Below are positions 25,831-34,422 of a stretch of 64,000 bases of DNA, piece after piece. The stretch spans positions 55,753 to 119,752 of the forward strand of contig JAFYJN010000067.1 in NCBI GenBank assembly GCA_017538105.1, read 5' to 3'. Each line of letters begins with the position of its first letter. Within the stretch, counting starts at the first letter, position 1. The translations under genes were made by a program, and so were the position numbers. A model generated the notes under the pieces. The model did not search any database. It saw only the letters and a list, made by a program, of their open reading frames with translations, and had not been told where the DNA came from. This stretch comes from Prevotella sp. GTDB lineage: Bacteria > Bacteroidota > Bacteroidia > Bacteroidales > Bacteroidaceae.

Positions 25831-26127
25831 TCATTTCTTTCGTTCTACTTTTGCCCTATTCATGATAATGGTTTCCTCATACGGTGCTCCCATCGTCCAA
25901 TACTTGTATTCGTCGATATAGAGATAGGGATGGTAATACTTTCCCCAGTGTTCATATACACCAAAACGACGTTGCATATCGATGAAATACAAGAACTCCT
26001 CGTCTGTCAAGGAACATTTGCCTCGCACGATATATTCGTGTGGTGCCCATGTCATTGTTTTGGCAAATGTCCATTGGCAACGGGAAATCATCTCACGAAG
26101 TTTTGAGTAATCTATATCTTTCTTCAT
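25831..26127 (-). CDS. Small protein of unknown function
   Basis: 98 residues, no signal peptide or membrane helix, rich in Tyr, Trp and Glu (FIDMQRRFGVYEHWGKYYHP, YLYIDEYKYWTMGAPYEETI). I do not recognise the family. It is probably a cytosolic single-domain protein. It lies downstream of the HIRAN gene on the same strand with a 170-bp gap that holds no obvious terminator or -7 box, so it could be read through from the HIRAN promoter. Whether it belongs to the island is uncertain. Confidence 0.55.
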   Translation of the reverse strand: MKKDIDYSKLREMISRCQWTFAKTMTWAPHEYIVRGKCSLTDEEFLYFIDMQRRFGVYEHWGKYYHPYLYIDEYKYWTMGAPYEETIIMNRAKVERKK

Positions 26128-26300: not shown

Positions 26301-26648
26301 TCAACTATACCGTCTTACAATTTTGATGGTCAGATGCACCTGATTTTCTGGGTGCGCGTCGGGATTGATTTTACAAATGCGACATTCAAAGATATCTGTC
26401 CATCCCATTTCGAGAATACTGGCAATGGTCTCGTTGTCCTTACGTGGGATGTAACCGATGCGGAACGAGTCATCCAACTCCTTGTCATCATAGACGACGG
26501 CTACGGCTTCAGGGTCATAGCGGTTATCTATTTCACGCTCCAAACGGAGAACCGTTCCCACCTTCAACTTGTCCCACACCTCATCAGCATCGTGAAACTT
26601 ACGACCAGCCAAGTGGCAATCCATGTAAAACTTCTTTTTCGTTTCCAT
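26301..26648 (-). CDS. Stand-alone HIRAN-domain protein
   Basis: About 115 residues made of a single HIRAN domain: FYMDCHLAGRKFHDADEVWD, LKVGTVLRLEREIDNRYDPE, AVAVVYDD and RIGYIPRKDNETIASILE are the family's typical blocks. HIRAN domains in HLTF/Rad5 helicases bind 3' single-stranded DNA ends; stand-alone bacterial versions are often found near DNA-processing genes. The start METKKK at 26648 is chosen because the promoter -7 box lies at 26687-26694, so upstream Mets (26675, 26711) would be at or before the transcription start. The promoter carries the same palindrome as the DUF6361 operon promoter, linking this gene to the island. Binding of DNA ends here is an inference. Confidence 0.82.
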   Translation of the reverse strand: METKKKFYMDCHLAGRKFHDADEVWDKLKVGTVLRLEREIDNRYDPEAVAVVYDDKELDDSFRIGYIPRKDNETIASILEMGWTDIFECRICKINPDAHPENQVHLTIKIVRRYS

Positions 26649-26686: not shown

Positions 26687-26694
26687 CAAAGTTA
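26687..26694 (-). promoter_or_regulatory. Predicted -7 box of the HIRAN gene
   Basis: On the minus strand TAACTTTG fits TAnnTTTG. The gap to the palindrome at 26704 is exactly the same as at the DUF6361 promoter (box to palindrome start: 17 bp). Transcription would start near 26681, giving a leader of about 33 nt. Confidence 0.65.
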
Positions 26695-26703
26695 GAGGCA
26701 TGT

Positions 26704-26722
26704 TGCACCATATTGTGGTACA
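26704..26722. promoter_or_regulatory. Palindromic operator, copy 1 (HIRAN promoter)
   Basis: TGCACCATATTGTGGTACA: arms TGCACCAT and (reverse complement of the right arm) TGTACCAC around a 3-bp centre. It matches copy 2 at 33928-33946 in 15 of 19 positions, and both are followed by CAG/CAGG-type flanks. It lies where the -33 contact of RNA polymerase would be, so a protein bound here would control transcription. The WYL regulator encoded between the two sites is the best candidate. Confidence 0.65.
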
Positions 26723-26756
26723 GCTTGAAGAAAAAACGTTTTTTCTACTGATTATC

Positions 26757-27692
26757 TTATTTTTCAGGCTCTTTATATCTGTTCATGGCAGACTGAAGCC
26801 ATCGTTGTATATCATCAGCTACATGTTGGGGCGAAAGAACTTGGACCAAATCTCCCCTTGACAAAACATGTCCTTTAAAGTCTGCCGTTGGCCGCAAATA
26901 CAGTTCATAATCGGTATACTCATCAGTCACATTGATTTCTCTTTGTGAATGGTGTAACGGCAAGTCACGCATATAATGAGGTTCCAGACCATATGCTCGC
27001 AATACAATTCGCTCTGGCTTGCTACCATCTCCTACAACAATACCAAAACACTCATTGAAAAATGCAGCAGCGTCGAAATCTGGATCAAGAGAGAATTTGG
27101 ACTGCTGCAGTTCCACATTCTCTATGCGGTCAAGGGAAAAAACAGCAAATTTCTCCTCTCCGTTTTTAGATGAATGTCTGACCATCGATACCAATACATA
27201 CCATCTACGGCGGAACAACTTCACACAATATGGAGCGACAGAGAACGAATTGGCTGATGTCGCCCCATAGCGGCGATAGGTCATCATAATTCTACAACTT
27301 CTGCGCATTGCCTTGATGATTTGTTGCAAATGAATGTCACCAGAAGGTATACTCTCTAATAATATACGGTGATGCAATCCTACGTTCTCATCAAGCATGT
27401 TACTCACGCTGAGCGTCGAGAACAACCAGTTCTGCACACTTTCCTCCTCTAGCACCTCCTTGTTATAAATGTAGTAACGGTACCCATCTTTCCTGTCACA
27501 TTCAATGATGACACCAAACATGTCAAAAATAGCGTCACGGTGACGGTTGAAGGTGGTTCGCGAAAACTCCAGTCCACCGCTTTCCTCCTTTCTTTTCCAT
27601 CGTTCGTTAATTTCGGCGAAGGTAATCTTTCCGGCCCGATTGATGGTTTCTATCAACCATATGTATTCTTTGAATAGTATGGGGATTTTCAT
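26757..27692 (-). CDS. WYL-domain transcriptional regulator
   Basis: 311 residues: an N-terminal winged-helix region (residues 1-80; FAEINERWKRKEESGGLEFS then RTTFNRHRDAIFDMFGVIIE), a WYL domain (about 125-200; FSVAPYCVKLFRRRWYVLVS, with the WYV version of the WYL core), and a C-terminal WCX domain (about 225-305; HHSQREINVTDEYTDYELYL, VLSRGDLVQVLSPQHVADDI). Such proteins (for example BrxR and CapW) are ligand-responsive repressors of phage-defence operons and bind inverted repeats. The gene starts 46 bp after the helicase stop with no own -7 box, so it is probably the last gene of the DUF6361 operon and may repress it through the palindrome at 33928. Confidence 0.87.
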   Translation of the reverse strand: MKIPILFKEYIWLIETINRAGKITFAEINERWKRKEESGGLEFSRTTFNRHRDAIFDMFGVIIECDRKDGYRYYIYNKEVLEEESVQNWLFSTLSVSNMLDENVGLHHRILLESIPSGDIHLQQIIKAMRRSCRIMMTYRRYGATSANSFSVAPYCVKLFRRRWYVLVSMVRHSSKNGEEKFAVFSLDRIENVELQQSKFSLDPDFDAAAFFNECFGIVVGDGSKPERIVLRAYGLEPHYMRDLPLHHSQREINVTDEYTDYELYLRPTADFKGHVLSRGDLVQVLSPQHVADDIQRWLQSAMNRYKEPEK

Positions 27693-27738
27693 AGTAAAAA
27701 CAGAGTTTCTATATGTCGTTCTTGGACAGTATAAAATA

Positions 27739-30700
27739 TTAACAGTGAGGCTGTTTATGAGTTCTTACAAGTCGATTAAATGGACTTAAATCGAAAAGGA
27801 GTTGGTGCATTTGCTCTTTCGTCACTTTTCCTTCAAGAAGCTGAAGAAGTTCTTCCTGCCGTGGTTGCCCCATTGTAAGGCGGTATAAAGAGAGAACATC
27901 TATTAGCCGTTTATATCTTAGTTCGTCTATACTCATAGGATATAGTGGAACAAGACGTTCGATGAATTCAAGTATTTCACTATGCTCTCTAATGATTTCC
28001 CTTGGTAAACACCAATATGGAACCATTTCAGAATAGTCTGTTGAAGAATCCTTTCTCCATCGTTTGTCTGTTTCTTCAAACATCTCTTCCCATGAAAAGA
28101 ACTCATTACCAAAGAACTTTGCAATGTTTCTGCGTATTGCCAGACATTTGTATCTGTTGATTCGCCCTTCCCGCTGTTCCATGTCAACAGGATTACTTGG
28201 AAGATTCCAATGAACTATCTTGCGTGTATACCAATGGAAGTCGAGACCTTCTTGTCCTACACTTGTAGTAGCCAAGACAAATGGACGGAAAGGTGAATTA
28301 AATGCCTGTTGTAGAGTTCCATTGTGCTTGAGATTTTTATCTTGTACGACCTTTGCATAGTCAAATGCGAAACTCCTGCGCATTGGCATAGGAGTACCGC
28401 TTTCTTTACAATAGGAATCAGTGGTGTGAATTCTATACGGAGTTGCGGAAATAAACGTTGCGTTCAATTTTTCCACAATTAAATCTGCATGGTGCCCTTC
28501 GTCTATCATATGACAATACTCATCCAATACTGCTTGGAGATTCCCCATCATACAATAGTACAACACTTGTTCGTAGTATATTAATCCTTTAGGTGTAGAC
28601 AATTCCACTGCTGCGGAATTTTCACGTCGGTTGAAAAGATTCACTATACCATCAGCCACATCTTTGGCATTGATAATATCATAGTCTGAAGGAGCGTCTT
28701 TGGGTTTCAATGCATTTTCAAGAATTCTTAAAATGCAAACAGCAGGAGAAGCTATGGACATAAATGCCAGCGTCTGAGCAGCTCTTAGAGGTATTCCGTG
28801 TAATTCGACATCTTCCCCTTCAAGTTTACGAATGAGCGTCAATAAAGATTCGGCACTGGTAACATTACGGACAGGAAGCTCTAATAGATCTATATCTGTT
28901 TGTATTTTTTCCTGAATAATCTCGATAATTGCATCAATTTCTTGGCCAAAGTACAAACGAGGGTCATATTTGTCAGCGAGATATCTTGATGGATATTCCA
29001 ATAATACACCACCTTCTTCTTGCATACGATTCATACCTATCTTTTTATTCGTTTTATAGGTGATTCCTTCGTTTTTATATGCTCCTACAACATTTCGGCG
29101 TTCTGATTCATATGATAGCATTACAGCCAGCATTCTTGGCACCATTTCCCAGGCAGAGAAGACTAAGACTTTGGAGAAATCCTTATTTATTGCAAACACG
29201 TTATTTGGAGGAATAGTATAATATGGGTGTGAGGCTGGAATCCAAAGCAGTTGCTCTGCATGATTCTTGAAAAGCATTGTTTCAAGTGCCACGAGTTTCG
29301 CATTTGCAGGTTCTATCGGTTTGTAGTTATACACTTGTCCACCCTTTAATATTAATCGCTGCATCCTCGAATTCTTAACAACAGGAATGTCCATCCCATT
29401 GAAAGCAGCCTCAACGGTCTTGCCTTCTTGATACTTCTGCATAAATGAGAGCAGATAAGGTGCGGACTTAACATATTCTATTGGAATGTTGTAGCTTGGA
29501 TTGATGCCTATACGTTCGCCGGAGTTCTTCTTCCTTTCCAGTTTCTTTTTGGCTTTTTGCAATAGCTTTTGCATTTGGCAATAGGCAAGAATGTCATCCC
29601 CAGATATGGCCATTTTCTCTAGTGGAACGGTTTTTATAAGTCCTTCACTGTATCGTTCGGTGCGACAAATAACATCATACATTTTGTCTTCTGCCTTTTG
29701 TTTGCTGATGACTAATGCGTCAAATATATCACTGCTGATGTGAGATAGTTTGTTGGAATAGTCCTCCCATACTGTATGGAAAGATTCGCTTTCTGTCGAT
29801 TCTTTTTTGAATAGGAACCGCATCAGCTTCAGGAAGTCTTCATACTGTTCGTCACAGTTCTCTTCATTTAACTCTTCCAAGGTTGTGAAAGGTTTATATG
29901 GCGTAGCTGAAAGTAATAGGATGTAGGGATGTTCATTGGTAAAAAATTCGCGGGCTATCATGGATTCCTCGGATTCACTGCTGGTATCCAGTAGTCCGCT
30001 GAAACGTTGAAATTCATCCATAATAACCAAGTCTGGCTCTAATTGGTTCAAACTCACCTGTGCAAATGCTATTCTGAGTTTGTTGATTATCCATGATGGC
30101 ATTTCTTTTGCTTCACCATTCACATATTCACAAACAGATTTTATAATTTGAGTGAAAACCTTGTTCCCACGTAAGAATTTTACAATGTTATTTAGATATT
30201 CAGTGCCACAGTTGCTAACACGTTCACAATAGTAAGAAACTAGAACATCCCAATTCTCCTGACCTTTATTCATTGTTTTCAACAGCAATGAAAGTCGTTC
30301 TCTTTTACCTGCAAATACATCCATTTCTTTTAGTATGGCGAATATCAGGGCGCGTTCGTTCGCATTTCCCGGACCACCTGTGATACTGAAAGATGTTGAA
30401 GGTGTTAATGGTATAAGTTGCTGTGGTAATTCAGTCCCATTCTTTCCCTCCTGCAGCATCTTCCTCTCTTGTAGAATCAAGTGCTGCATAGACAATCTGC
30501 TGTCTTGCATCTGCATGATGTCCTCTTTGGGAATGCCTAAATTACGGGTATTCTGTTGAATAATATTCTGATTGGAGCATACGTATACCACCCTATATAT
30601 TCCATCAGTCTCAACACCTGGCAGGGTTTTAGCCATTTCCACCACAGTTCTTGCCATAATGGTTTTTCCCAGTCCTACTTCGTCGCTAAGCAAGACGCGT

Positions 30701-30771
30701 TTTTGGCCGCTTTTGAATATCTCGATGATACGCTCTGCTGTTGCTTTTTGAAAATCTTTAGCATTACTCAT
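27739..30771 (-). CDS. SNF2/DEAD-type superfamily 2 helicase of the island
   Basis: A 1010-residue superfamily-2 ATPase. Motif I is LLSDEVGLGKTIMA (about residue 30), motif II is DEFQ in VIMDEFQRFSGLLD (about 252), motif III is LLLSATPYKP (about 289). The C-terminal lobe has SATPYRI (about 775), TTSVGQEGLDFHWYTRKIVH (motif V) and VDMEQREGRINRYK (motif VI). Between the lobes lies an unusually long insert of roughly 400 residues with a Lys-rich coiled-coil stretch (MQKLLQKAKKKLERKKNSGE). DEVGLGKT is typical of SNF2-like translocases that move on double-stranded DNA. The start overlaps the PLD gene stop by four bases, indicating tight coupling. A role in detecting or remodelling foreign DNA is an inference from gene context. 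Confidence 0.88.
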   Translation of the reverse strand: MSNAKDFQKATAERIIEIFKSGQKRVLLSDEVGLGKTIMARTVVEMAKTLPGVETDGIYRVVYVCSNQNIIQQNTRNLGIPKEDIMQMQDSRLSMQHLILQERKMLQEGKNGTELPQQLIPLTPSTSFSITGGPGNANERALIFAILKEMDVFAGKRERLSLLLKTMNKGQENWDVLVSYYCERVSNCGTEYLNNIVKFLRGNKVFTQIIKSVCEYVNGEAKEMPSWIINKLRIAFAQVSLNQLEPDLVIMDEFQRFSGLLDTSSESEESMIAREFFTNEHPYILLLSATPYKPFTTLEELNEENCDEQYEDFLKLMRFLFKKESTESESFHTVWEDYSNKLSHISSDIFDALVISKQKAEDKMYDVICRTERYSEGLIKTVPLEKMAISGDDILAYCQMQKLLQKAKKKLERKKNSGERIGINPSYNIPIEYVKSAPYLLSFMQKYQEGKTVEAAFNGMDIPVVKNSRMQRLILKGGQVYNYKPIEPANAKLVALETMLFKNHAEQLLWIPASHPYYTIPPNNVFAINKDFSKVLVFSAWEMVPRMLAVMLSYESERRNVVGAYKNEGITYKTNKKIGMNRMQEEGGVLLEYPSRYLADKYDPRLYFGQEIDAIIEIIQEKIQTDIDLLELPVRNVTSAESLLTLIRKLEGEDVELHGIPLRAAQTLAFMSIASPAVCILRILENALKPKDAPSDYDIINAKDVADGIVNLFNRRENSAAVELSTPKGLIYYEQVLYYCMMGNLQAVLDEYCHMIDEGHHADLIVEKLNATFISATPYRIHTTDSYCKESGTPMPMRRSFAFDYAKVVQDKNLKHNGTLQQAFNSPFRPFVLATTSVGQEGLDFHWYTRKIVHWNLPSNPVDMEQREGRINRYKCLAIRRNIAKFFGNEFFSWEEMFEETDKRWRKDSSTDYSEMVPYWCLPREIIREHSEILEFIERLVPLYPMSIDELRYKRLIDVLSLYRLTMGQPRQEELLQLLEGKVTKEQMHQLLFDLSPFNRLVRTHKQPHC

Positions 30772-32582
30772 AGTGCGGAGATTTGTTTTGAAACGTTTTG
30801 GAACATCTGCAAAATTCTTGTTAATTCATCTGGGACAATATCCTTTTTCATCTTTTTGATGAATTTTTGTACTTCAGCAATCTGCTCTGGATTGTTTCTC
30901 GCAGTACGAAGTAACTGTTCATATAGCGGCATCGTTGTGGCTTGTGAGCCAATGCCGTATGAACTCTTGTTCTTTTCTTGAATCATCTGTTGTTCGAAGA
31001 CAAACTCGGAAGGACGGTCGCTCAACATAAAAGCAACATAATCAAGTAATTCCTCTTTCTTCGTTACAATGCTCTGGTATATAGCTTCGTCTCTATTCAC
31101 AGGCATACCTGAAGTTTTGACCTTTACCACCATCTCCATGAAGGAACCGTCTTCGCATGGAATTCTAAGAACATAAAACTCTGATAGTAAAAAAGCTGCC
31201 AATTCAGTAAAAGAGACCTGTCTGCCAATAGGTTTCCATAGATTCTTACACTGTAAGGGTCTAACAGAAATTTCATCATCAACTTTTCCTTGTACAGACA
31301 AGTTGATGTCATACCAACCGTCCTTCTCGCTTGGCTTGATGGTCGCTCTTTTCAAACAGTCTATAGCCTTTTTTAAAGCAAGTTCTTTCTCGTTCTTTTG
31401 TCGTGTGTTCGTCGCTTCAGGATTGGGGGCATCCATTATTACAAATCTGTGTTCACTCACCATCTCTTCAAGCAATTCCTTGATGCGGTCGTTGGTAGTT
31501 CTCTTATAATGCAATCTCAAAAGGAATTCGGCATTCTTGTCGAAACCATTTACCGTAGCATTGGTACTGCCAAGATATAGAGTGTAACCAAGGTCTTGAC
31601 CAGTCACCCTGTGTGTCAGATACATTTTTGCATGTAGGTCAACATTTGCTGTCGTATTGTCTATCATGGTATCATTGGGAACCCAAACCTGCTCGAACAA
31701 ATCAAACACTTCTTGTGTGACATATTCCTTTCTTGTAATTAAAATGGTGTTCCGGCTCTCGTAATGATAGTCTTTTTTCCTTGACGTTAGCCAAGAAAGG
31801 GTGGAGAGGTCAATGAAGGGAGATATTACCATTATCCGGTCACCAGGTAAGTATGATTTCAGGACGGAACCGTATTCGGAAAATTCATCTTTTCCATATA
31901 CAAATGGAAAGAAGCCATATCCTTCTTCTTCGTTCTTTTCAGCATCTTCTGTTTGGAATGGTGTGTCAAGTTCAAAGCGGTCAACATATTCCAATAACTC
32001 AGCCAATAGTCTGACTTTCTCCGCTTTAACTTTTTGAGACTGTGCATATTCGCTCAACCACAGCAGCATATCCTTAAGGGACTTATGCTTTTCAATTCCC
32101 TTTCTGCTTCGTCTTTTGGAAATGCGACCTCTTAACGAGCAACAAATGTCAAGGCAGGTCGAAAAATCCAAATTCCGACTCATCACTGACAACTTCAGCC
32201 ATTCAGATCCTTCTTTATCCGTTTCTTTAACCAACCAGAGCTTTGGATGAAAATTGGTAAGAATATCCTTCGCGTTTTGGACCTCAAAGATACTATTCTC
32301 TAACAGCGAATAGACGGTTCTCGTTTCTTGTGGAACATGAATACTGCCTTTATTACAGAATACAGCTATTTTATCGCTACTTCTGCGAATTCCTTCCAAT
32401 AGATATGCAGGACTTAGTTTAACGCTATTATCAAGCTCACCCAATTCGCCAAAAGCGAGAGGAACGGTTAACATTGCCTCCAGATTTAGGGAGTAAGTCA
32501 AGCCAACTGCAAAATCTACTTTACACCCATCCGAAACAAGTTGTTCGCCATAAATCAAATCTTTCAATAATTCCCTTGCCAT
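30768..32582 (-). CDS. Phospholipase-D-like protein of the island
   Basis: 604 residues with two HKD-like half-motifs of the phospholipase D superfamily. The first is NFHPKLWLV (about residue 111) with SVMSRNLDFS behind it. The second is VDLHAKMYL (about 315) with YLGSTNATVNGFDKNAEFLL (about 338-357). Bacterial PLD-superfamily proteins of this sort next to helicases are usually nucleases; many are split from, or fused to, SNF2-type helicases, which matches the next gene. Neither motif shows the full HxK(x)4D, so activity should not be assumed. The start lies one base after the DUF6361 stop and the end overlaps the helicase start (ATGA), so the three are one translational unit. Confidence 0.83.
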   Translation of the reverse strand: MARELLKDLIYGEQLVSDGCKVDFAVGLTYSLNLEAMLTVPLAFGELGELDNSVKLSPAYLLEGIRRSSDKIAVFCNKGSIHVPQETRTVYSLLENSIFEVQNAKDILTNFHPKLWLVKETDKEGSEWLKLSVMSRNLDFSTCLDICCSLRGRISKRRSRKGIEKHKSLKDMLLWLSEYAQSQKVKAEKVRLLAELLEYVDRFELDTPFQTEDAEKNEEEGYGFFPFVYGKDEFSEYGSVLKSYLPGDRIMVISPFIDLSTLSWLTSRKKDYHYESRNTILITRKEYVTQEVFDLFEQVWVPNDTMIDNTTANVDLHAKMYLTHRVTGQDLGYTLYLGSTNATVNGFDKNAEFLLRLHYKRTTNDRIKELLEEMVSEHRFVIMDAPNPEATNTRQKNEKELALKKAIDCLKRATIKPSEKDGWYDINLSVQGKVDDEISVRPLQCKNLWKPIGRQVSFTELAAFLLSEFYVLRIPCEDGSFMEMVVKVKTSGMPVNRDEAIYQSIVTKKEELLDYVAFMLSDRPSEFVFEQQMIQEKNKSSYGIGSQATTMPLYEQLLRTARNNPEQIAEVQKFIKKMKKDIVPDELTRILQMFQNVSKQISAL

Positions 32583-32583
32583 A

Positions 32584-33810
32584 TTACATCGCCTTTCTAA
32601 TTTCGTTGATAACTTGATAAACTATCTCGTTCCATCTGAATGACAACATCTGTGGCCATCCACGTTCCTCGCCTTTGTATTTGGGATTTCTGAGTTTGTT
32701 TCGACCAGGCTTGACGGCTTTCTCTCTAGCGACAATTAAATCATCGAGCTTATCCCAATTGCGTTTTTCAATCTGTTCAACAACTCTTTTGCAAAATGAT
32801 ATAACGGTATTTTCCGTAACATGGTTGCGAATAAAAAACAACATATCGTCTATAGCTTGACGCGTAAAATCAGTGGGATATTGATTCAGCACTTCTTCTA
32901 TTCTTCCTTGAAGTTGGTCTGCTTCTTCCTGTTGCTCATTATAGATGGCCATAATGTGGTTGAATCGTAATTGCACAACGTAAGCAAGATGGGAGAATCG
33001 TTGCCCCATCCGATACTGTTTCATATACTCCGCAAAATCCTCCGGCATATTCTGCCAGATGGTTCCAAGGGCATCATATTCTGGTAGGACTTCCACATTG
33101 TTGCGAAGGATATAGGCCAGCATCGAATCCATGCTTTTCATTGAGTTCACGATGTGCCCCTTGATATATTCAGCTTCTTTCTTTGTTAGTTCCAATGGTA
33201 AAACCATACCATAGTCAAAATCATAGTTTTCTCCACTAACAGAAAAGAATTGTTGCAAACCACTTAAATCTTCGGAATCACTCATCTCTCCTTCTTCAGA
33301 AGTCTTGTATTTCGGCTTTTGTTGGTTGATTTGCTTGCTTCGTTCAAAAATGAGTCGGTAAATATCAATGTCACCTTTCACCATGTCAAATGTTCTGAGT
33401 CCGGTCATATAAATATAAGTCGGATCATATTTGACAAACTTACTTGGGTCATTCTTTGCAGCTGCAAGCATTGATCTACCGGTGATGCCGGTCTTTTTGT
33501 TCTCATCATTACCAGCACCATTAACCAACATATCTGTTAATCTGATTTCCCATCTCACGATTTGCGCCCTTACATCACGGACTTTATTGTAGTTCTTCTT
33601 TGTTGCTTGATAGAACAAAGAAGGCATAACTGCAAAATACTTGGCACGACGTTGAAGGGTTGACATACCGGGAAACATCATGTTAGCGAAAGCATCACGT
33701 ATTCTCCCGAAGCCAAGTTCATCAATTGCTGTTTGGTCGCGAACCATCTGCAACACTTTGTTCTTTCTGGCCAATTCTTCTTGACTAAAGTTTACAAATC
33801 CTATCTCCAT
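32584..33810 (-). CDS. DUF6361-family protein, first gene of the island operon
   Basis: 408 residues. The N-terminus IGFVNFSQEELARKNKVLQM, GRIRDAFANMMFPGMSTLQR and RAKYFAVMPSLFYQ is the signature of the DUF6361 family, which I know as a partner of helicase and PLD genes in bacterial defence-type loci; its biochemical function is not established. The body is mainly helical and basic, with a Lys/Arg-rich end (REKAVKPGRNKLRNPKYKGE) that could contact nucleic acid. It heads an operon with the PLD protein (1-bp gap), helicase and WYL regulator. Its promoter at 33911-33946 carries the palindrome shared with the HIRAN gene. Confidence 0.82.
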   Translation of the reverse strand: MEIGFVNFSQEELARKNKVLQMVRDQTAIDELGFGRIRDAFANMMFPGMSTLQRRAKYFAVMPSLFYQATKKNYNKVRDVRAQIVRWEIRLTDMLVNGAGNDENKKTGITGRSMLAAAKNDPSKFVKYDPTYIYMTGLRTFDMVKGDIDIYRLIFERSKQINQQKPKYKTSEEGEMSDSEDLSGLQQFFSVSGENYDFDYGMVLPLELTKKEAEYIKGHIVNSMKSMDSMLAYILRNNVEVLPEYDALGTIWQNMPEDFAEYMKQYRMGQRFSHLAYVVQLRFNHIMAIYNEQQEEADQLQGRIEEVLNQYPTDFTRQAIDDMLFFIRNHVTENTVISFCKRVVEQIEKRNWDKLDDLIVAREKAVKPGRNKLRNPKYKGEERGWPQMLSFRWNEIVYQVINEIRKAM

Positions 33811-33910
33811 AATTTTTTACGAACCCAAGGAAACTAATAATAATAGGTCTTTCTATCTACAACATATATTTTTCCAAACTATATGAAGTTTCCCACCATT
33901 TTATTTTATG

Positions 33911-33918
33911 CAAAGATA
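33911..33918 (-). promoter_or_regulatory. Predicted -7 box of the DUF6361-PLD-helicase operon
   Basis: On the minus strand TATCTTTG fits TAnnTTTG. It implies a start near 33905 and a leader of about 95 nt before the DUF6361 start codon. No TTTG is present at the -33 position, which is occupied by the palindrome. Confidence 0.65.
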
Positions 33919-33927
33919 TAACAATCT

Positions 33928-33946
33928 TGTATCATATCATGGTACA
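33928..33946. promoter_or_regulatory. Palindromic operator, copy 2 (DUF6361 promoter)
   Basis: TGTATCATATCATGGTACA: arms TGTATCAT and TGTACCAT (right arm reverse-complemented) match in 7 of 8 positions around a 3-bp centre. The half-site consensus with copy 1 is TGTACCAT. The distance to the -7 box is identical in both promoters. Confidence 0.7.
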
Positions 33947-34002
33947 GGTTACTTTTTTTATAGAGGAAACACACCCATAGTGGTTTTATCATAAAGGGAA
34001 TA

Positions 34003-34422
34003 TTAAATTAGTGGCTCAATGATGGGAAGAGCCCCTTCATGTTTGTTCACCTGCTTCCAATGACCTCCTGCACGGCCCCTTTTCAGATTATGTTGAAGGT
34101 CATTGTACTTCACATGGATGGCGATGCTATTGCCAGAGGATGCTATGCGCTTGACATAGTCCTCATATTCCTCTTCTTTGTTGTGTGTCAATAGTCGAAG
34201 TGCATCAACGATTGGCTCATCGACACCACGGGCAAGTAGGTCATCAAACGTAAAATCGGTGTCTTCTACCACATCATGAAGCAGTCCAGCGATGATTTCC
34301 TCTCGGTTATTGCCTGCCAATCCCACAGCCATGGGATGCAGAATGACCGGATTATTGTCAAGATCTTTCTGTCCTTCATGCGCCTCTATTGCCAGGCGCA
34401 AGGCATTTTCAATTGTGATCAT
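34003..34422 (-). CDS. HD-domain protein, MESH1/(p)ppGpp-hydrolase-like
   Basis: 139 residues, a compact HD-type hydrolase. It shows the motifs of the hydrolase half of RelA/SpoT: AHEGQKDLDNNPVILHPMAV (first His), AGLLHDVVEDTDFTFDDLLA (the HD pair followed by ED) and VKYNDLQHNL (final Asp). This is the layout of small alarmone hydrolases (MESH1-like), which remove pyrophosphate from (p)ppGpp; the exact substrate is inferred. It lies between the island and menE, on the same strand as both, about 190 bp from the DUF6361 promoter and 43 bp from the menE end. It could be an accessory gene of the island or a neighbour by chance. Confidence 0.75.
   Translation of the reverse strand: MITIENALRLAIEAHEGQKDLDNNPVILHPMAVGLAGNNREEIIAGLLHDVVEDTDFTFDDLLARGVDEPIVDALRLLTHNKEEEYEDYVKRIASSGNSIAIHVKYNDLQHNLKRGRAGGHWKQVNKHEGALPIIEPLI

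Follow-up and report, generated by a model that had tools for sequence, protein, structure and literature searches.

WYL-domain transcription factors have been described both as activators and as repressors, and regulators of both kinds resemble the one considered here, a WYL protein encoded behind a ZacABC operon (which we take to be the Azaca defence system) in a 64,000-nucleotide stretch of a Prevotella sp. genome (contig JAFYJN010000067.1; the whole stretch is called the window below). DriD, a WYL activator of Caulobacter crescentus, acts at promoters whose -35 is poor, among them those of recJ and dnaG; its site lies across the -35 and keeps a fixed distance to the -10 (PMC12340889). PafBC is a mycobacterial WYL activator that works by sigma adaptation and acts, as the available portion of its description has it, at promoters without a normal -35 contact (PMC11804915). 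CapW and BrxR are WYL regulators that stand beside the defence systems CBASS and BREX and also bind inverted repeats. In the passages available from the two reports, CapW recognizes inverted repeats of 19-24 bp that overlap the -10, affects its own gene and represses (PMC9122588), and the repressor BrxR recognizes two 11-bp arms, the first box lying just downstream of its promoter and the second upstream of another promoter (PMC9122601).

The Prevotella locus shares with DriD the WYL and WCX domains of the protein and the layout of the site, which lies over the -35/-33 position at a fixed distance from the -10/-7. The phylum and the promoter code differ: here the code is -33 TTTG and -7 TAnnTTTG, and the sites also precede CRISPR, restriction and Azaca genes. 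PafBC gives the best WYL-domain profile match to this family, but it binds a -26 motif as a heterodimer, and the locus described here has a single gene and a 19-bp palindrome. In the excerpted reports the CapW sites lie on the -10 and the first BrxR box downstream of it, whereas the palindrome described here lies 9 bp upstream of the -7 box. Azaca has the same three genes as this locus, the difference being that here they are joined to a WYL and a HIRAN gene. A search of open-access literature listings found no description of this arrangement.

A comparable role, the control of recA-type genes through palindromes, is held by the non-canonical LexA proteins of Bacteroidetes, S24-type repressors whose motifs are given in excerpts as GGA-N5-TCC or CTAA-N5-TTAG. 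Both LexA groups are reported to be absent from Bacteroidales (PMC8565304), and a search of this genome for the LexA DNA-binding domain (PF01726) was negative. A response that is driven by WYL and independent of LexA is thus a possible and testable reading.

Here we describe a 36-bp promoter signature, in which a palindrome stands in the place of the -33 box at a fixed distance from the -7 box, and which recurs beside WYL genes and in genomes across the family. The palindromes of the window are probably bound by the WYL protein of the island as a homodimer, which would drive DriD-like activation, and we read the whole as a WYL-activated defence and repair regulon in Bacteroidales. This bears on how Bacteroidales turn on DNA repair and defence.

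Two promoters of the locus carry the same palindrome

The promoter features of the locus are the following.

26704..26722, minus strand: WYL box 1 (predicted), TGTACCACAATATGGTGCA on the transcribed (minus) strand, 5' of the HIRAN gene
26687..26694, minus strand: -7 box of the HIRAN promoter, TAACTTTG, 9 bp from box 1 (start site predicted)
26731..26744, minus strand: A/T tract, AAAAAACGTTTTTT, a few bp upstream of box 1, at the place of the conserved A/T tract
33928..33946, minus strand: WYL box 2 (predicted), TGTACCATGATATGATACA on the minus strand, 5' of zacA
33911..33918, minus strand: -7 box of the zacABC-WYL promoter, TATCTTTG, 9 bp from box 2 (start site predicted)
33953..33961, minus strand: A/T tract upstream of box 2

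A sequence-only reading of the window had pointed to the two 19-bp palindromes, and its description holds: they lie at 26704-26722 and 33928-33946 and are identical at 15/19 positions. The offset of 17 bp from a CAAAnnTA box that it gave is also right for both sites, CAAAGTTA (26687-26694) and CAAAGATA (33911-33918) each starting 17 bp before the palindrome, which leaves 9 bp between palindrome and box. As it had further claimed, the -33 region is without TTTG, none being found at spacer 19-20 in either promoter. When TGTACCAT-N3-ATGGTACA was searched with up to three mismatches, the two sites were the only matches in the window; shuffled versions of the window gave a mean of 0.24 matches at the same threshold.

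The palindrome keeps a fixed distance from the -7 box

The ZacA search of the genome contigs returned one relative, a 70% identical protein in a metagenome-assembled genome of Salinivirgaceae (L041, 5568-11540) with a HIRAN gene upstream, and on the 16.8 kb of that locus there was neither a WYL match nor the motif. Footprinting was therefore done through the WYL gene instead, on the window and 60 stretches around WYL homologues of 37-68% identity, and the motif was not used in the search for spacing. Palindromic 19-mers with TG..CA ends occurred 31 times at a gap of 9 from an exact TAnnTTTG, against 0-3 times at any of the other gaps between 0 and 40; without any constraint on the sequence the count was 35 at gap 9 against 0-11 at other gaps. 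Among 79 motif-like palindromes the box at gap 9 was exact in 39, matched at 5 of 6 positions in 17 and was neither in 23, while 28 other gaps from the same palindromes gave on average 1.4 boxes of 5-of-6 or better.

The other TAnnTTTG boxes of these loci (n=1039) have a TTTG at spacer 19 in 45 cases and at spacer 20 in 59, against 2-24 (median 8) at the other spacers from 5 to 39. In the palindrome promoters the normal -33 position falls inside the palindrome; TTTG stands there in 0/35, and TTG at spacer 20 in one.

From 117 distinct composite sites of the family the consensus is TGTnYCRYGWTTTGRnACA, in which the search pattern determined all columns but the free centre. The outer arms are symmetric and the free columns (R Y G W T T T) are directional, as is expected of a site that is read together with the polymerase. 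This consensus differs from both reported Bacteroidetes motifs, and the site is accordingly not a LexA box. In other respects the promoter is of the usual kind. The TAnnTTTG of the sites is followed by C (88%) and A (74%), compared with 64-70% and 59-74% in canonical sets. The A/T tract upstream of the site has a similar counterpart in ordinary promoters of these loci, so it was not counted as an UP element specific to WYL.

Within the promoter-proximal half of the site, a TTTG (columns 11-14) stands 14 bp from the -7 box in 76/117 sites, about 5 bp closer to it than the -33 tetramer normally lies. It is perhaps a displaced sigma contact.

Occurrence in the genome and across the family

The assembly is a draft of 3.61 Mb in 102 contigs with 5.5% contamination, and the 301 family genomes are a sample drawn from a larger group, taken as Bacteroidales from their promoter type. 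The sequence-only reading had proposed a genome-wide scan for the motif, and its outcome depends on what is scanned for. Taken alone, the palindrome is merely mildly enriched, with 28 places at three mismatches or fewer against 18 for the reversed pattern. With two mismatches or fewer it occurs at four places in the assembly, the window pair and two others, and the latter have no -7 box at the 9-bp spacing on either side. What is specific is the palindrome joined to the -7 box: a pattern for both, TGTNYC-N7-GRNRCA-N9-TANNTTTG (36 bp; the composite pattern), has 4 exact matches in the assembly against 0 for its reversed control, and all four are on the window's contig, at two WYL loci.

Over the per-genome table of the 301 genomes the composite pattern sums to 121 matches, spread over 67 genomes, and the reversed pattern to 4. 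The WYL protein search found matches in 153 of these genomes. At E <= 1e-20 a WYL match is present in 59/67 site-bearing and 94/234 site-free genomes (Fisher p 7e-13), and at E <= about 1e-89 in 34/67 and 8/234. The 42 genomes with these strongest matches include 8 without an exact site, and near-sites with an altered box or half-site were seen at six of those loci (L058, L063, L064, L066, L069, L078). The conservation in related loci that had been proposed as a check is thus found, both beside WYL homologues and across the genomes of the family.

The WYL protein is very probably the binder

26757..27692, minus strand: WYL/WCX transcription factor, 311 aa, with SRTTFNRH (about residues 44-51) as the presumed recognition-helix region

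The protein matches the WYL domain (PF13280, E 8e-11) and the C-terminal WCX domain (PF25583, E 9e-6), both above the cut-off. Residues 44-53 are presumed to be the recognition helix from the winged-helix pattern. For 32 pairs of a WYL gene with a site within 400 bp, or 29 after near-identical proteins were removed, 280 protein columns were compared with the bases of the half-site. Columns 45, 46, 49, 50 and 53 lie within the ten that covary most with base 4 (29 pairs), and residues 43-53 are enriched (hypergeometric p 8e-6, rank-sum p 8e-4), this stretch having been delimited after an earlier ranking, with 45, 49, 50, 53 and 46 among the first seven, was seen. Where base 4 is A the protein has RTTFNRH in 11/20 pairs, and where it is C, ARSTF or ARATF in 4/5. 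The half-site TGTTYC goes with TFYRH, TFHRH or TFFRH (4/4), TGTGC with LRTFH (3/3), and TGCACC on both halves with HRNTF (2/2). From such pairs it seems that the DNA recognition of WYL proteins may follow a code that can be read.

Within this genome, two WYL paralogues 53% identical to each other have their own variants of the half-site, TGTACC at the window locus and TGTCCC/TGTCTC at another WYL locus (L051, G000:C88:19000-36000), which lies on this contig at a distance of about 55 kb. There the site TGTCCCACGTATTGAGACA is followed by a PDDEXK and UvrD pair, which we label AddB/AddA-like, and a further site precedes a BspA-like LRR gene. That one regulator, the WYL protein, is common to both promoters of the window had been proposed in the sequence-only reading; it is strongly supported by the conservation of sites beside WYL homologues, the fixed spacing and the covariation of half-site and recognition region. 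Judged from these sequence comparisons, the WYL protein is very probably what binds the palindromes.

Activation or repression

We propose that a WYL dimer would bind two TGTnCC half-sites straddling the place where sigma reads the -33 TTTG, and that the bound protein would help RNA polymerase to start at a normal TAnnTTTG(CA) promoter without a usable -33. It would drive zacABC-WYL, in a positive loop, and from the second promoter the HIRAN gene. Its WYL domain would most likely sense a nucleic-acid signal of infection or DNA damage, in the way of DriD and PafBC; that the signal is DNA damage or single-stranded DNA has, in our estimate, an even chance. Activation rather than repression we consider quite likely, because the site takes the place of one of the two polymerase contacts and keeps an exact distance to the remaining one, an arrangement that an activator requires and a repressor does not. 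The profile comparison gave 4e-15 for PafBC and 6e-13 for DriD (8tp8, WYL+WCX), against 0.001 for CapW and 0.006 for BrxR. The likeness to BrxR and CapW suggested in the sequence-only reading is not favoured, as the site stands in for the -33 at a fixed distance from the -7.

Operators rarely need exact spacing. If the WYL protein were nonetheless a repressor, with the palindrome as an operator over the -33, then zacABC-WYL and HIRAN would be silent until a phage supplied the ligand. Polymerase would be blocked by an operator at this place, the WYL gene of this locus does sit behind its own site, G at column 9 (84/117 sites) keeps one base of a spacer-19 -33 box, and BrxR and CapW, the known defence-linked WYL regulators, repress in the excerpts of their reports. 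The gap of 9 bp, found 31 times against 0-3 at other gaps, argues against it; moreover a promoter whose -33 is absent would stay poor once derepressed, WYL genes are seldom behind the site (5/62), and the partial texts place the CapW sites over the -10 and the first BrxR box downstream of the promoter. Repression is therefore unlikely. It is considerably less probable still that another regulator, encoded elsewhere, binds the sites and that WYL is merely a regulated neighbour. Such a regulator would account for the 75/117 sites with no WYL homologue on the fetched stretch and for the 8/67 site-bearing genomes without a WYL match at 1e-20, but six of those eight genomes are less than 90% complete, the bases of the half-site vary together with the recognition region of the WYL protein encoded beside it, and two paralogues of one genome carry differing site variants. 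Chance similarity or a recent promoter duplication has a negligible probability: at least two matches arose in 3/100 shuffles of the window, but the two sites have unrelated 9-bp spacers (ACATGCCTC and AGATTGTTA), and the conservation of the arrangement, with 121 occurrences in the 301 genomes and 4 of the control, rules out chance.

Several observations weigh against DriD-like activation by the island's WYL protein. Part of the -33 loss is a consequence of the half-site sequence, and a repressor that covers the -33 could likewise keep a fixed position. An exact site is lacking in 94/153 WYL-positive genomes; around the nearest WYL relative (G152, 68% identical) no site could be recognised in 14 kb, and its genome has no exact one, and L092, a WYL locus with a Cas3-cluster protein, has none. 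Two of the eight site-bearing genomes without a WYL match are more than 90% complete. The sites without a WYL homologue on the fetched stretch, several of which span only 3 kb, mean that many would act in trans. Covariation is also seen at columns outside the helix (29, 232, 60, 273), so the effect of shared ancestry has not been fully removed from it. One of its pairs involves a WYL fragment of 92 aa (L158), and two come from tandem WYL genes with one common site (L084).

If activation is the right reading, such defence systems would be silent or low until induced. The 36-bp signature is searchable and predicts, genome by genome, the CRISPR, restriction, Azaca and repair genes that may respond to a WYL activator. 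A broader and more tentative view, to which we give somewhat less than even odds, is that Bacteroidales use duplicated WYL activators as a modular, LexA-free response to damage and infection. Each paralogue would have its own half-site code, and the exchange of the -33 for a WYL box would join repair (recA in one genus, AddBA-like, S24) and defence (Cas12a, Cas9-like, type I-C, restriction, Azaca) in one switch-on regulon.

Autoregulation

The WYL gene is the last of the zacABC operon behind box 2, separated from zacC by 46 bp in which no TAnnTTTG was found. Activation of zacABC-WYL would consequently be a positive loop. The autoregulation that had been suggested is thus plausible at this locus, but it is not the rule in relatives. 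Among the 62 WYL genes with enough upstream DNA (window and L042-L101), five have a site within 400 bp upstream that points at the gene, with an exact box in L084 and L100 and a 5-of-6 box in L054, L078 and L089; 16/62 have TTG-N19/20-TAnnTTTG upstream. The commonest arrangement, in 24/61 loci, is a WYL gene with a site within about 400 bp behind its stop codon and a target operon in the same direction (15 sites with an exact box, 9 with 5-of-6).

Some members look self-controlled from their upstream DNA. In two pattern-selected loci (L103, L209) the site points at WYL, and the WYL paralogues C26 and C74 of this genome (38% identical) have, with the spacing unchanged, a two-mismatch variant immediately upstream of their own gene. 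This variant reads TCTGCCACG..TGGCGTA + N9 + TACTTTTG and lies at G000:C26:13754-13789 and G000:C74:3605-3640.

Genes behind the sites in relatives

The genes named here are a chosen subset of those downstream of sites, and many of the scanned genes have no Pfam match. CRISPR genes behind a site include Cas12a in L062 (PADLOC), with same-cluster proteins in L077 and L097, the type I-C proteins Cas3/Cas5c/Cas8c in L073, a Cas3-cluster protein in L081, Cas9-like domains in L154 and L125, and Cas6 in L184. A type IIG enzyme lies about 0.8 kb behind the site in L050, and there is an HpaII-type pair in L178 and a type III-like pair in L186. SNF2 or PLD helicases (L102, L161, L165), an IetA-like AAA protein (L087), an AIPR protein (L160) and a UvrD-PDDEXK protein (L201) were also found. 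S24 peptidases of about 285 aa, 32-46% identical to each other, follow the site in L120, L168, L189 and L192; they are possible UmuD/LexA-like damage genes.

In one genus (g17; G017, G044, G065 and G083, with L173, L180, L181 and L183) the site precedes a pair of saccharopine dehydrogenase and recA genes. RecA was recognized in L173 from a Pfam match and in the others from sequence similarity, at 79-81% identity to the RecA of this genome. The recA of this genome was rejected as a WYL target, since its dehydrogenase-recA pair has an ordinary promoter, TTTG-N19-TATCTTTG, which lacks a palindrome at the 9-bp spacing. Nor is a regulon confined to repair and defence clean, as a BspA-like LRR protein, a C10 peptidase, a ferritin, a CotH/dockerin protein, a serpin and an acyltransferase lie behind some sites.

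A HIRAN gene is found within 300 bp at 7/117 sites, and less exact sites precede HIRAN in L043, L046, L055, L058 and L060. HIRAN genes stand repeatedly behind a WYL box (L043, L046, L055, L057, L058, L060, L074 and others) with differing neighbours, and the gene may be a general accessory of the regulon.

Genes of the locus

Besides the WYL gene, the locus contains the following genes.

32584..33810, minus strand: ZacA (Azaca, DUF6361), PADLOC model E 1e-75
30768..32582, minus strand: ZacB (Azaca, PLD-like), PADLOC model E 1e-130
27739..30771, minus strand: ZacC (Azaca, helicase), PADLOC model E 6e-259
26301..26648, minus strand: HIRAN-domain protein, 115 aa, behind box 1 with a separate promoter
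25831..26127, minus strand: 98-aa protein, function unassigned, with relatives in the WYL/HIRAN loci L043, L046 and L060

ZacA, ZacB and ZacC occur in order and match the PADLOC models over nearly their full length, which places the operon in Azaca. Directly upstream of the Azaca promoter, at 34003-34422, there is a small HD-domain protein (HD_4, under the Pfam cut-off) with same-cluster relatives in four of the fetched WYL loci (L057, L064, L074, L076).

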